DNA of 64,000 nt, taken from assembly GCF_019635455.1 (NCBI RefSeq), contig NZ_JAHBZJ010000009.1, positions 1-64,000 on the forward strand. Direction: 5' to 3'. The notes below the pieces were generated by a model. The model worked only from the letters and a program-made list of their open reading frames with translations. It did not search any database and was not told where the DNA came from. Source of the DNA: Sphingomonas sp. Lineage in GTDB: Bacteria > Pseudomonadota > Alphaproteobacteria > Sphingomonadales > Sphingomonadaceae. Every line of letters begins with the position of its first letter. Position 1 is the first letter of the stretch. Below are positions 26,545 to 37,400 of this stretch, piece after piece. Position numbers and translations under genes: made by a program.

Positions 26545-26629
26545 GCGGGTTTCAAACGCAACTTTTTTGGCGGCGCCCGGAGTCGGGCGCTTGCCCCCAT
26601 TCGTGCTTAGGGGCTAGCGGGTGATTCCC

Positions 26630-28264
26630 ATGACGCGGTACATTTTCATCACCGGCGGCGTGGTTTCCTCGCTCGGAAAAGGCCTGATGGCGGCAAGCCT
26701 CGCGGCGCTGTTGCAGGCGCGGGGCTATACGGTCCGCATCCGCAAGTTCGACCCCTATCTGAACGTCGATCCCGGAACCATGTCGCCCTATCAGCATGGC
26801 GAGGTCTATGTGACCGACGACGGTGCGGAGACCGATCTGGACCTGGGCCATTACGAGCGGTTCACCGGCGTCGCGTCGCGCCAGTCGGACAATGTCACGT
26901 CGGGCCGGATCTACAAGACGATCATCGAGCGCGAGCGGCGCGGCGACTATCTGGGCGCCACCGTCCAGGTCATTCCGCACGTCACCGACGCGATCAAGGA
27001 TTTCGCACAGGCGGAGACCGAGGACCTGGATTTCGTGCTGTGCGAGATCGGCGGGACCGTCGGCGATATCGAATCGCTGCCGTTCATCGAGGCGATCCGA
27101 CAGCTCAAGAACGAACTGGGTCGCGGTCGCTCGATCAGCGTTCATGTGACGCTGGTGCCGTATATCTCTGCGGCGGGCGAACTGAAGACCAAGCCGACGC
27201 AGCACAGCGTGCGGGAACTGGCGTCGCTGGGGGTCCAGCCCGACGTTCTGGTATGCCGTGCCGAAAAGCCGCTGCCGGCGGGCGAGCGGGCGAAGATCGC
27301 GCAGTTCTGCAACGTGCCGGCCAGCGCGGTCATCCCCGCGCTCGATGCGAAAAGCATCTATGCGGTGCCGCTGCAATATCATGCCGAAGGGCTCGACAGC
27401 GAAGTGCTCCGTGCGTTCGGCATCGAACCGGGACCCAACCCCGACCTGTCGCGCTGGACCGAGATCACCGACCGGCTGTTCAACCCCGAGGGTGAGGTGA
27501 CCGTGGGCGTGGTCGGCAAATATGTCGGCCTGCCGGACGCGTACAAGTCGCTCAACGAGGCGCTGGTCCATGGCGGCATCGCCAACAAGGTGAAGGTGAA
27601 TATCCGCTGGATCGACGCCGAATTGTTCGAAGGCGATGAGGCGGAGATCGCGGCGAAGCTGGAGCCGTGCCACGCGATCCTGGTCCCCGGCGCGTTCGGA
27701 TCGCGCGGGGCGGAAGGGAAGATCGCCAGCGTGCGCTTCGCGCGTGAACGCAACGTCCCCTATTTCGGCATCTGCTTCGGCATGCAGATGGCGTGTATCG
27801 AGGGCGCCCGGAACCAGGCGGGAATTGCCGGCGCTTCATCGACCGAGTTCGGGCCGACCGATGAGCCGGTGGTGGGCATCATCACCGAATGGATGAGCGA
27901 GGCAGGGATCGAAAAGCGCGAAGAGGGCGGCGATCTGGGCGGCACGATGCGGCTGGGCGCCTATCCCGCGACACTGGCCGGCAATTCGGTCGTCGCGTCG
28001 ATCTATGGCGCGGACGAGATCAGCGAACGCCACCGGCACCGTTATGAGGTGAATACGGGTTATCGTACCGCGCTCGAATCGAATGGCCTGGTGTTTTCCG
28101 GCATGTCGCCCGACGGGATGCTGCCCGAAATCGTCGAACGGCCCGACCATCCGTGGTTCGTGGCGGTGCAGTTCCACCCCGAGCTGAAGTCGAAGCCGTT
28201 CGACCCGCATCCGCTGTTCGCGAGCTTCATCGAAGCGGCGGTGCGCCAGTCGCGACTGGTCTGA
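26630..28264 (+). CDS. pyrG: CTP synthase
   Basis: 544-aa enzyme that makes CTP from UTP with glutamine. The N-terminal synthase domain starts [19 protein letters not shown], and the C-terminal glutaminase has the nucleophile Cys in FGICFGMQM and the His-Glu pair in VQFHPE. ATG 26630 gives the canonical start; a GTG three codons upstream is also in frame. Full length. Confidence 0.98.
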
Positions 28265-28299: not shown

Positions 28300-28343
28300 C
28301 CTGAAAAAACAAATGGGCGCCCGGACTGATCGTCCGGACGCCC
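28300..28343 (-). terminator. Terminator of the small heat-shock gene
   Basis: GGGCG and CCGGAC pair with GTCCGG and CGCCC (12-bp stem with one mismatch, 5-base loop, 28315-28343), followed on the minus strand by ATTTGTTTTTTC, a strong U-tract. A second hairpin (GCGGCGCG/CGCGCCGC, 28351-28380) lies between it and the stop codon. pyrG converges from the other side and may share these structures. Confidence 0.8.
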
Positions 28344-28863: not shown

Positions 28864-28955
28864 GTGGATATCCTCCAATGAGCAATTTCAACGTCCTGTC
28901 GGCATCCGGATGGCCCGCAATGCCGGTTCTGCATGGCCCCGAAGGCGCCGTGCAT
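28864..28955 (-). promoter_or_regulatory. ROSE-type RNA thermometer in the hsp20 leader
   Basis: The minus-strand leader folds as three consecutive hairpins. Hairpin 1 (28930-28954) has a UGCA/UGCA base and a UUCG loop. Hairpin 2 (28900-28925) has a CGGCAU/AUGCCG stem. Hairpin 3 (28871-28885) pairs UUGCUC with the Shine-Dalgarno GAGGA across an AUUG loop, leaving one G bulged. The U(U/C)GCU element opposite the ribosome-binding site with the unpaired G is the defining signature of ROSE elements, which melt on heating and free the site. The pairings are read from sequence; the thermometer role follows from the family. Confidence 0.8.
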
Positions 28956-28959
28956 CGTT

Positions 28960-28988
28960 GATTTGGGAAGCAATGCGGCAGTTTCAAG
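28960..28988 (-). promoter_or_regulatory. RpoH-like (sigma-32) promoter of hsp20
   Basis: CTTGAA (28983-28988, minus strand) matches the alphaproteobacterial RpoH -35 box exactly. About 17 bases on, CCCAAATC is an acceptable -10. The predicted start, about position 28955, falls at the first base of hairpin 1 of the ROSE leader, giving a 5' UTR of about 92 bases. Confidence 0.6.
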
Positions 28989-29114: not shown

Positions 29115-31529
29115 ATGACACCGCATCTGATCGCACTTCTGGTCGCCAGTGCCGGGGGCAATGCCGATCCGGCTCAGGAAACGCCGCCCGTCGCCACCGC
29201 CGAACATCCACGCTCCGTCCCGGGGGACAGCGCACGCACCGTGGATGACGTTCAGCGCGCCACGGCGGCATCCGACATCGTCGTGACCGCGCGCCGGCGC
29301 GACGAACAGGCACAGGACGTGCCGATCGCCATCTCCGTGGTCGGTGTGAAGGAACTGGACGGCAGCGGCAGTTTCAACGTCGCGCGGCTGACCCAGCTGC
29401 AACCGACGCTGCAATTCTTTTCGACCAATCCGCGCAATTCGTCGGTCAATATCCGTGGCCTGGGCGCGCCGCTGGGCCTGACCAATGACGGGATCGAACA
29501 GGGCGTCGGCATCTATATCGATCAGGTCTATATGAGCCGGGTCGCCATCGCGACGCTCGACTTCCTCGATGTCCAGCAGATCGAAACGCTGCGCGGGCCG
29601 CAGGGAACGCTCTATGGCAAGAACACGGTCGCCGGCGCGATCGGCATCACCAGCAAGCCGCCGAGCTTCGCCTTTCAGGGCCGTGCCGAGGCGAGTTTCG
29701 GCAATCTCGATTTCGCCCAGTTCAAGGGGTCGTTGACCGGACCGCTGAGCGATAACGTCGCCGCGCGACTGGGCGTGGCGGTGACCAGCCGGCGCGGCAC
29801 GATCCATGATGTGGCGACGGGCGACGACGTGAATTCGCAGGACAATCTGGGGCTTCGCGGTGCGATTCTGTGGCGCGCGGGCGATAGGATCGACCTGACG
29901 CTGGCTGCGGATTACAGCCGGCAGGATCCGAAGTGCTGCGCACAGACATTCGTGCGCGTCGGCGCGACGCAACGTCCGCTCAACCGCCAGTTCGATGCGC
30001 TTGCCGCGGCACAGGGCTATGAACCGCCCAGCCGCGACCCCTTTGATCGGGTGACCGACCTGGATGCCGAATTGCGCGCCCGCAACGTGCTCGGCGGCAC
30101 GTCCCTGCGGGCCGAGGCGGAGTTGGGGGGCGGCAAGCTGACCTCGGTCACCGCCTGGCGGTTCTGGGACTGGCTGCCGGCGAACGATCGCGACTTCACC
30201 GGCCTGCCGATCACGACGCTGTCGCAAAACCCCACCCGGCAGGATCAGTTCACCCAGGAGGTCCGCTATGCCGGGCAGGCCAGCGGGTTTGACTATGTCG
30301 CCGGCATCTTTGGCTTTTACCAGAACATCCACACCACCGGCACGCAGCGTCAGGGACCGGCGGCCAGCAAATGGCTGTTGGCGCCGAGCGACCCCTTGTC
30401 GAACGATCCCGGCGTGCTCGACGGGCTGACCGCTGTGAACGACATCCGCCTGCGCAATTTCAGCGGCGCCCTGTTCGGCAAGTTCAACTGGAATGTGAGC
30501 GATCGCGTGACGCTTTCGCCCGGACTGCGGCTTAATTACGACGACAAGGTCGGCGATTATTCGAGCGTGGTGCGCGACGGCCAGGGCGTGCTGGTGCCGA
30601 CCACCGGCGGCACCGACCGACAGGCGGCGCAGCGCGGCGTGCTGCGCCCGCAATCCTTCTCCGGCGAGGCGTATCGTGCGTGGAACCTGTCCTATGACGT
30701 CACCGCGTCGGTCAGGGCGGCACGTGATGTACTGCTCTACGCCACCTATGCCCACAGCTTCAAATCGGGCGGGTTGAACCTCAACGGCCTGCCGGCGGCG
30801 AACGGCGTGCTGCAATCGCAACTGGCGCAGGTCGCCCCGGAAAAGGTGGACCATTATGAGCTCGGCGCGAAAACCCAGTTCTGGGACCGCAGGGTGACGC
30901 TGAACCTCGCCGCCTTCTGGACCGAAATCCATGACTATCAGGCGGTGGTCAACAACAGCTCCACCTCGACGCTGCGCGGCTATCTGGCGAATGCGCCACG
31001 GGTCCGCGTGCGCGGGATCGAGGGAGATTTTTCGATCCGGCCCAGCGCGCGGTTGAACCTCTATGCCAATGGCGCATGGACCGACGGCCGATATATCGAC
31101 TTCCCCAACGCGCCATGTCCTCCCGAATTGTCGGGCGGATCCGCCAGCCCGGCAAGCTGTGACATTTCGGGGCAGTGGTTGCCCGGAATCTCACGCGTCG
31201 CCATCTCTTATGGCGGCGAGGCGAATGCGCCGGTTCGCCTGGCCGGACATGCGGGAGAAGCCTATCTGGGGATCGACGCGAGTACGCGGAGCAGGTTTTC
31301 GTCCAGCGCCTCGCGGTCGATCTACACCGATGTCGCCGGGTACACGCTGCTGAACCTGCGGGCCGGGTTTCGCACCGATGCCGGGTTCAACCTCTTCGCC
31401 TGGCTGCGCAACGCGCTCGACGCGCGCTATTTCGACGTGCTGGCGACCACGCCGGGCAATACCGGCCTGATCGCCGGCAATGTCGGCGATCCGCGCACCT
31501 ATGGCGTGACGCTCGGCTTCGGTTTCTGA
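29115..31529 (+). CDS. TonB-dependent outer-membrane receptor
   Basis: 804-aa receptor. A weakly hydrophobic N-terminus (probable signal peptide) is followed by the TonB box DIVVTA at residues 54-59, the plug domain (VNIRGLG, VGIYIDQVYM, IETLRGPQGTLYGKNTVAGAI), and a 22-stranded barrel ending in LGFGF with a terminal Phe. It belongs to the large sphingomonad group annotated as FecA/CirA-like; the ligand cannot be told from sequence. It stands alone, divergent from hsp20, with no siderophore or sugar genes beside it. Confidence 0.93.
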   Translation: MTPHLIALLVASAGGNADPAQETPPVATAEHPRSVPGDSARTVDDVQRATAASDIVVTARRRDEQAQDVPIAISVVGVKELDGSGSFNVARLTQLQPTLQFFSTNPRNSSVNIRGLGAPLGLTNDGIEQGVGIYIDQVYMSRVAIATLDFLDVQQIETLRGPQGTLYGKNTVAGAIGITSKPPSFAFQGRAEASFGNLDFAQFKGSLTGPLSDNVAARLGVAVTSRRGTIHDVATGDDVNSQDNLGLRGAILWRAGDRIDLTLAADYSRQDPKCCAQTFVRVGATQRPLNRQFDALAAAQGYEPPSRDPFDRVTDLDAELRARNVLGGTSLRAEAELGGGKLTSVTAWRFWDWLPANDRDFTGLPITTLSQNPTRQDQFTQEVRYAGQASGFDYVAGIFGFYQNIHTTGTQRQGPAASKWLLAPSDPLSNDPGVLDGLTAVNDIRLRNFSGALFGKFNWNVSDRVTLSPGLRLNYDDKVGDYSSVVRDGQGVLVPTTGGTDRQAAQRGVLRPQSFSGEAYRAWNLSYDVTASVRAARDVLLYATYAHSFKSGGLNLNGLPAANGVLQSQLAQVAPEKVDHYELGAKTQFWDRRVTLNLAAFWTEIHDYQAVVNNSSTSTLRGYLANAPRVRVRGIEGDFSIRPSARLNLYANGAWTDGRYIDFPNAPCPPELSGGSASPASCDISGQWLPGISRVAISYGGEANAPVRLAGHAGEAYLGIDASTRSRFSSSASRSIYTDVAGYTLLNLRAGFRTDAGFNLFAWLRNALDARYFDVLATTPGNTGLIAGNVGDPRTYGVTLGFGF

Positions 31530-34450: not shown

Positions 34451-37400
34451 ATGCCCCATTCCGGCTTCGTCCCGCTGCGCGTCTTTTCCGCCTACACGAT
34501 GCTGGAGGGCGCGATCGAGCCGAAGGCGATCGCCGCGCGTGCGCGCGAGCTGGGCTTTCCCGCCGCTGGCCTGTGCGATCGCAACGGCCTGTATGCCGCC
34601 ATGTCCTATTCGGACGCGGCGAAGAAGGCGGGGGTTCAGCCGGTCATCGGCGCGTTGCTGTGCGTCGAACGCCCCGACATGCCCGACGGGGTCGAGCCGC
34701 CGCTCGACTGGCTCGCGCTCTTTGCGCAGGACGAGACCGGCTACAACAATCTGTGCGACCTCGTCTCGATGGCGCATCTCGACCGGCCGATCGAGAAGGA
34801 TGCGCACGTCCCCTTCGCCGCGCTGGACGGGCGGACCGACGGGCTGATCGCGCTGACCGCCGGTGCGGAGGGCGCGCTGGCGCGGTTGTTCGCCGAAGAG
34901 CAGGGGGCGGCGGCGCTGGCCTATGCCGATCGGCTTCAGGCACTGTTCGGCGACCGGCTCTATGTCGAGATCGTCCGCCGGCTGAACCCGGTGGAGGGCG
35001 CGGCAGAGGCCAAGCTGCTCGACCTGGCCTATGATCGCGGGCTTCCGCTCGTCGCGACCAATCCGGCCTGCTATGCCGAACCCGATTTCCATGAAGCGCA
35101 TGACGCGATGCTGTGCATCGCCGGATCCTGCTACGTCGCGAGCGACGAACGTGCGCGATCCTCGCCGGACGCGTGGATGAAATCGGCGACCGAGATGAAG
35201 CGGCTGTTCGACGATTTGCCCGAGGCGATCGCCAACACGCTTGTCGTCGCCCAGCGCTGCGCCTTTGCCGCACCCAAGCGCAAGCCGATCCTGCCCAGCC
35301 TGGCCGGCGATCGTGAGGGCGAGGCGACCGCACTGCGCGACGACGCGCGCGCGGGGCTGGAGGTGCGGCTGGAAAAGGCGGGAATCACGGACCCGGATCG
35401 CCGACAGGCCTATTTCGACCGCCTGGCCTTCGAAACCGACATCATCATCCAGATGGGGTTCCCCGGCTATTTCCTGATCGTCGCGGATTTCATCAAATGG
35501 GCGAAGGCGAACGGGATCCCGGTGGGGCCGGGGCGTGGTTCGGGCGCGGGCAGCGTCGTCGCCTGGGCGCTGACGATCACCGATCTCGATCCGCTGGAGC
35601 TGGGCCTGCTGTTCGAACGCTTCCTCAATCCCGAGCGCGTTTCGATGCCGGATTTCGACATCGACTTTTGCGAAACCCGGCGCGGCGAGGTGATCCGATA
35701 CGTCCAGCAGAAATATGGGCGCAACCAGGTTGCCCAGATCATCACCTTTGGAACGATGAAGGCGCGCGCGGTGCTGAAGGACACCGGCCGCGTGTTGCAG
35801 ATGAGCTATGGCCAGGTCGATCGGCTGGCCAAGCTGGTGCCGAACCACCCGACCGATCCGTGGACGCTGCCGCGCTCGCTCAACGGGGTCAGCGAGTTCA
35901 AGGCGGAATATGATGGCGACGAGGGTGTCCGCTACCTGATCGACCTGGCGATGAAGCTGGAAGGGCTGCCGCGCCACAGCTCGACGCACGCCGCCGGCGT
36001 GGTGATCGGCGACCGGCCGCTCGCCGAACTGGTGCCGCTCTATCGCGATCCGCGTTCGGACATGCCGGTCACCCAGTTCGACATGAAATATGTCGAGGGC
36101 GCGGGGCTGGTGAAGTTCGACTTTCTGGGCCTCAAGACGCTGTCTGTCCTGCAAAAGGCGGTCGAACTGCTGGCCGCGCGCAACATCGACATCGATCTGG
36201 CGGCGCTCGGCTGGGACGATCCGGCGGTTTACGAACTGCTCCAGCGCGGCGACACGGTCGGCGTGTTCCAGCTGGAATCGGAAGGGATGCGGCGGACGCT
36301 CACCGCCGTGCGACCCACCAATTTCGGCGACATCATCGCGCTCGTCTCGCTGTATCGCCCCGGCCCGATGGACAATATCCCGATGTTCGGGCGGCGCAAG
36401 CAGGGGCTGGAGCCGATCGAATATCCCCACCCGCTGCTGGAGGACATCCTCAAGGAAACCTACGGAATCTTCGTCTATCAGGAACAGGTGATGCAGGCCG
36501 CACAGATCCTGGCCGGCTATTCGCTGGGCGGCGCCGACCTGCTCAGGCGCGCGATGGGCAAGAAGATCAAGGCGGAGATGGATGCCCAGCGCGCGCTGTT
36601 CGTCGAAGGCTGTGCCAGGGTGAACGCGATCCCGGAGGCAAAGGCGAACGAGCTGTTCGATTTGATCGACAAATTCGCGGGCTATGGCTTCAACAAGTCG
36701 CACGCCGCCGCCTATGCGCTGCTCGCCTATCATACCGCGTGGCTGAAGGCGCATTATCCGCATGAATTCTACGCCGGATCGATGTGCTTCGAACTTGGCC
36801 AGACCGAGAAGCTGGCGGTGTTCGTCGAGGATATGAAGCGGTTGGGGGTCGCGTGCCTTCCGCCCGATATCAACGCGTCCGAGGCCGAATTCTCGGTCGA
36901 GGCGGTCGAGGACGGGTTCGCGGTGCGCTACGCGCTCGCCGGGCTGAAGGGCGTCGGTGAACGCGCGATGGAACTGCTGGTCGAGGAGCGGGCGGCGAAG
37001 GGGCGGTTCCAGAGCCTCGACGATTTCGCGCGCCGGGTTGATCCGCGCCTGCTGAACAAGCGACAAGTGGAGGCACTGGCCGGGGCAGGCGCGTTCGAAA
37101 GCGTCGCCCCGGACCGCGCCGGCGTGTTCGCCGCCGCCGAGACGATCCTGGCGGTGGCGCAGCGCACGCACGAAAACCGCACGAGCGGGCAGGGCGGATT
37201 GTTCGGTGAGGCCGAGCCGGTGGGATCGGCGATCCAGCTGCCGAAAAGCGCCAACTGGACGCTGAGCCAGCGGATCGAGGCGGAAAAGGACGCGTTCGGA
37301 TTTTTCTTTTCGGCGCATCCGCTCGATCGCTACCACCACCTCGCGAAACTTCATTCGGCACGCACGATCGTCAGCCTGGGCGAGATCGAGATCGCGGAGG

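Follow-up and report, generated by a model that had tools for sequence, protein, structure and literature searches.

The Rfam family RF00435 (ROSE) has as its type the ROSE1 element of Bradyrhizobium hspA. In Pseudomonas, the last hairpin alone melts. More broadly, a ROSE-like RNA thermometer is defined as an element within the 5' leader of a bacterial small heat-shock gene that has two to four hairpins, in the 3'-most of which a U(U/C)GCU motif is imperfectly paired with the Shine-Dalgarno sequence (SD) and leaves one G bulged, the RNA itself causing translation to rise with temperature (PMC3669281, PMC4166951). We analysed a stretch of 64,000 nt, referred to as the window, from the 3.15-Mb genome of Sphingomonas sp. 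(GCF_019635455.1, contig NZ_JAHBZJ010000009.1, positions 1-64,000). The leader of its small heat-shock gene hsp20 almost certainly folds into a ROSE-like thermometer, predicted to hide the ribosome-binding site until warming.

The hsp20 gene and its leader

The hsp20 gene (Table 1) was the sole homologue detected by a homologue search of the whole genome, and it is flanked by pyrG (26621-28264, plus strand) and a TonB-dependent receptor gene (29115-31529, plus strand). The NCBIfam model nearest to its product is the IbpA equivalog NF008013, whose cut-off of 212 bits the protein misses (158.5 bits, E 1e-46); we therefore name it IbpA-like and not IbpA. Given the terminator-like hairpin downstream of the gene, hsp20 is probably transcribed as a single-gene unit.

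Read 5' to 3' on the minus strand, the upstream region consists of CTTGAA, 15 nt, CCCAAAT, hairpins I, II and III, and the ATG. The initial annotation had called this leader a complete ROSE thermometer, with three hairpins in series and UUGCUC paired with GAGGA around one bulged G. As a prediction this description is fair: the element is part of the 5' leader of a PF00011 small heat-shock gene, each of the three helices contains covarying pairs, the letters of the last hairpin are as described, and the core and its bulged G are nearly invariant. The core of hairpin III comprises C28880-G28875, U28881-A28874, C28882-G28873, the bulged G28883, U28884.G28872, U28885-A28871 and A28886-U28870, a register (UUGCU at 28885-28881 with GAGGA) that is backed by covariation. 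Beyond A28886-U28870 the stem continues to G28892-C28864, broken by one A.A and one U.C mismatch. G28883 is unpaired in three predicted structures, namely the Rfam alignment, the alignment to our own model R1 (see below) and the 25 C fold.

Table 1. Features of the hsp20 leader, its promoter and the gene, in window positions
Feature	Position	Strand	Basis
-35 element CTTGAA, RpoH-type	28983..28988	-	read directly; identical to the RpoH1 -35 quoted in PMC4843759
-10 element CCCAAAT, 15 nt from -35	28961..28967	-	5/7 letters match CCTATAT
Predicted transcription start, about A28955	28953..28956	-	inferred from -10 distance
Hairpin I, UGCACGGCGCC-UUCG-GGGCCAUGCA, one C.A mismatch and a bulged G	28930..28954	-	fold; 7/10 pairs with double-sided changes (46 leaders)
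Hairpin II, CGGCAUU(G)CGG-GCCAU-CCGGAUGCCG	28900..28925	-	fold; double-sided changes in 8/9 counted pairs
Hairpin III, predicted thermosensing, contains SD	28864..28892	-	in 25 C minimum-energy form; 5/11 pairs with double-sided changes
Anti-SD UUGCUC, bulged G28883, ROSE U(U/C)GCU motif	28880..28885	-	read directly; conserved
SD GGAGGA, 7 nt upstream of start codon	28871..28876	-	read directly; conserved in alignment A1
Competing hairpin UGGA-GGAUA-UCCA, takes in SD; this sequence and some near relatives	28865..28877	-	fold energies
hsp20 start codon ATG	28863-28861	-	read directly
hsp20, IbpA-like small heat-shock protein, 154 aa	28399..28863	-	PF00011 E 1.4e-16
Intrinsic-terminator-like hairpin and T run, downstream of hsp20	28304..28343	-	consensus scan; count not above shuffles

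No Rfam family reached its gathering score anywhere in the 64-kb window. A search with the ROSE model, which the initial annotation had proposed, nevertheless bore it out: under permissive settings RF00435 aligned over its full length (1-94) at 28952-28862 on the minus strand, where the element had been predicted, though its 25.0 bits fell short of the gathering score of 45. Searching the whole genome with RF00435 returned this match alone, at E 0.18 and ending on the hsp20 start codon. We find such a marginal E value persuasive because the match stops on the ATG of the sole hsp20 gene detected. Since the gathering score is a curation threshold and no biological feature, we file the element as ROSE-like and not as an RF00435 entry.

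Covariation and spread in Sphingomonadales

The leaders of hsp20 homologues were collected from 110 loci, giving 96 distinct sequences, of which 46 diverse ones were aligned by sequence only (alignment A1). Pairing was then tested on A1 for 30 pairs, with hairpin III in the register of the Rfam model. Double-sided changes were found in 115 cells, compared with 42.1 +/- 5.5 in shuffles, and none of 500 shuffles scored as high. Standard pairs filled 83.2% of cells (74.5% in shuffles), the covariation score was 0.287 (0.153 in shuffles), and pairing fell to 36-51% when the partners were shifted by 1-3 columns. The signal persisted in A2, a set of 30 relatives from which the window clade was left out (69 double-sided changes, 20.1 in shuffles). 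Within the anti-SD motif, G, C, U and C are invariant in A1, and the CUC/GAG core of the anti-SD/SD pairing is nearly so across the leaders; hardly any variation is expected here if ribosome binding constrains the core. At its base hairpin III mostly reads UUCAA/UUGAA in relatives; in others this part is replaced by largely matching pairs, for example in L061 (GUUAAG with CUUAAG) and L072 (UUUUA with UAAAG).

These data bear directly on whether a GC-rich leader could present ordinary hairpins and a fortuitous anti-SD by chance. The 95-nt leader is no more stable than its shuffles (z -0.42), its Rfam score is below threshold, and its motifs are expected 0.15-0.22 times per window, the anti-SD/SD motif (0.15) being weak evidence by itself; all of this is what chance would give. 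Covariation across 46 leaders with its slide controls and the order-wide association with hsp20 contradict that explanation, to which we assign next to no weight. The leader stands above chance because of the covariation, in 46 leaders and in the 30 without the window clade, and because of the end-to-end alignment of the ROSE model.

From A2, which excludes the window and the seven relatives closest to it, we built a covariance model, R1. It recovered the leader in the window's genome at 28962-28861 on the minus strand with 70.8 bits (E 4.7e-14); the runner-up had 16.5 bits. Given that these leaders are homologous, recovery by R1 demonstrates shared ancestry and conservation, and the structural argument rests on covariation. 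R1 matched in 115 of 298 genomes of Sphingomonadales. Every match inspected preceded an hsp20-homologous ORF, both among the best matches outside the window (29/29) and among selected others (20/20). Hsp20 leaders of some other genera of the order (L169, L170, L172, L174, L182) have a single upstream hairpin before the thermosensing hairpin, compared with two in Sphingomonas.

RF00435 itself gave matches over its cut-off in 43 of 201 congeneric genomes. We fetched 20 RF00435 loci: all 13 that were over the cut-off lie before a second Hsp20 paralogue, mostly starting MRTNFDF, and the sub-threshold loci mostly precede orthologues of the window hsp20. At least two classes of hsp20 with predicted ROSE-like leaders are thus present in the order; the Rfam cut-off detects chiefly one of them and misses most elements of the window's paralogue class.

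One further leader in the collection (L127, 1370-1480 on the minus strand; G071:C10, near 36356-36435) is ROSE-like, with 33 bits for RF00435 and an RpoH-like promoter. The gene that follows, of about 104 aa, is not hsp20 and matched no Pfam or NCBIfam family; a thermometer on this uncharacterised gene is possible. Among 200 genomes of the family, 20 encode smaller relatives of its product, about 70-80 aa long and with the core LEPEVKRAILASWASD, for example at L212, L214, L216 and L227. Most have no ROSE motif and instead an AAAGGAG-rich leader, often with a CCAAAAT-like -10, and four are divergent from an hsp20 gene about 300 bp away. These small proteins are a candidate for an uncharacterised heat-shock-associated family.

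Promoter, folding energies and proposed mechanism

According to PMC4843759, the RpoH1 promoter of Sinorhizobium reads CTTGAA-N15-16-CCTATAT, and the rpoH1 type is the only one in Sphingomonadales. CTTGAA-N15-CCCAAAT upstream of hsp20 fits this alphaproteobacterial pattern, in keeping with the RpoH-like promoter of the initial annotation, and the genome has an rpoH gene (TIGR02392, 363 bits, cut-off 323). The promoter motif is expected 0.22 times per window by chance and is weak on its own. Among homologous leaders, CTTGA[AC] lies 80-140 nt upstream of the start codon in 96 of 96 distinct sequences; a C-rich-then-AT -10 at similar spacing, in forms such as CCCAAAT, CCCAGAT or CCAAGAT, recurs in many of them, and a strict -10 pattern is unmatched in roughly half. 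The further claim that both layers of heat control can be read at this locus is likewise fair as a prediction.

Scanning the genome for RpoH-type promoters gave 23 matches, compared with 1 for a reversed control, and no clean heat-shock regulon; most matches were inside genes or before unrelated ORFs. A separate observation is CTTGAA-N16-CCCATAT at L194 (G000:C5:64764-64791, minus strand), upstream of an ORF with a cold-shock-protein-like start (MSTTGTVKFFNADKGYGFI).

The CTTGAA-N15-CCCAAAT promoter and the rpoH gene would also suit heat control by RpoH transcription alone, with the helices kept for mRNA stability or basal translation. Heat shock raised an Hsp20-family transcript of Sphingomonas melonis TY (hsp17), which may not be the orthologue of the window gene, 1,857-fold and the protein 11-fold (PMC10434288), a result that suits such control and also the two-layer switch favoured below. 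Hairpins kept for stability, however, need neither an anti-SD/SD pairing that hardly varies and keeps its bulged G in place nor an end-to-end ROSE match, and we judge regulation by transcription alone to be very unlikely.

Folding energies of the single sequence are equivocal, neither proving nor disproving a thermometer. At 25 C the extended hairpin III (-6.3 kcal/mol) is within the minimum-energy form of the leader, and to this extent the earlier drawing of the hairpin holds; at 37 C it is no longer the minimum, the UGGA/UCCA hairpin (-3.5 kcal/mol) being nearly tied with hairpin III (-3.4 kcal/mol). By 42 C hairpin III is the less stable of the two. The predicted energies switch from hairpin III to the alternative near 36-37 C, which is weak evidence for an RNA-intrinsic temperature response. 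Nearest-neighbour folding of a 45-nt fragment gave anti-SD/SD pairing of 12-25% in the window sequence and a median of about 70% in relatives. Extending the leader by 31 nt of coding sequence leads ViennaRNA to favour a different global fold. Without the bulged G, the 45-nt fragment is predicted to be more stable by about 2-3.5 kcal/mol, in agreement with the oppF thermometer, where deletion of the bulged G reduced heat induction (PMC11342760).

The competing hairpin raises the possibility of a bistable thermometer, in which the SD would be common to the hairpins formed with the anti-SD UUGCUC and with the downstream UCCA, opening in a temperature window and with self-repression by Hsp20 as an extra input. 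We regard this model as improbable. As a third state the UGGA/UCCA hairpin was set aside, since L005 and L008, both close to this species, are unable to form it; it is probably incidental.

A ViennaRNA temperature series showed no clear melting of the SD for the window leader. We gave this series little weight because nearest-neighbour parameters ignore the non-canonical pairs reported in ROSE hairpins. The small effect of temperature on SD exposure would suit a leader conserved mainly as a binding site for Hsp20, which would repress its own translation in the manner of E. coli IbpA and be titrated by unfolded proteins, with RNA thermosensing playing a minor part. The window Hsp20 also contains NRGFERRF and NYPPF, motifs that would correspond to those of Arg93 and position 34 in the E. 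coli protein. For IbpA to repress its own translation through the leader, it must carry Arg93 and an aromatic residue at position 34, both reported to be conserved in alphaproteobacterial IbpAs (PMC10474464). On the other hand, the most conserved part of the leader is the UUGCU core with its bulged G together with the SD, as a thermometer predicts. The two forms of control are also compatible: in gammaproteobacteria, self-repression and thermosensing operate on one leader, and self-repression may be a complementary layer here. Overall, we consider self-repression as the main function unlikely.

We therefore favour, with high confidence, a two-layer heat switch on this IbpA-like gene, in which transcription by RpoH is combined with the ROSE-like leader. 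On heat stress, RNA polymerase with RpoH (sigma-32) would start near 28955, and the 5' leader would fold into its three hairpins. At low temperature, the covariation-backed pairing of UUGCUC with GAGGA in hairpin III would block the ribosome, as in ROSE-like elements already studied. Warming would open this weak helix, with its bulge and its wobble and mismatched pairs, freeing the SD so that Hsp20 could be made. Hairpins I and II may remain folded as a scaffold.

Relation to described ROSE elements

In the openly readable literature, which our survey covered, we found no description of a ROSE element in Sphingomonadales. The order is used in bioremediation and plant protection, and the present analysis extends a well-understood RNA thermometer across it. 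Its natural variants, with one or two upstream hairpins, UUGCU or UCGCU, and a weak or strong basal stem, lend themselves to a study of how melting temperature is tuned.

Like the ROSE family RF00435, the window element precedes a small heat-shock gene and has three hairpins, the same register of hairpin III and a UUGCUC/GAGGA core with a bulged G. It differs in the basal part of hairpin III, where the model has CCAug/uaUGG in place of the sequence usual in the relatives and where the window species has two mismatches. Elements before the second (MRTNFDF...) paralogue of other Sphingomonas share the core UUGCUC...GGAGGA and an upstream CTTGAA or TTGAA, but their hairpins I and II differ in sequence, they precede a different paralogue (about 57-61% protein identity), and they score up to 67.8 bits with RF00435; the whole-genome search with RF00435 found no such second-paralogue element in the window's genome.

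The short ROSE-like element of Pseudomonas ibpA resembles the window leader in its anti-SD motif, its proposed mechanism and its sigma-32 promoter but has two hairpins, one fewer (PMC3669281). Leaders L169, L170, L172 and L174, with their single upstream hairpin, resemble these short Pseudomonas elements (PMC3669281). Judged by its sequence, the hsp20 leader is almost certainly a known kind of switch, in an order where the Rfam model scores it below threshold.
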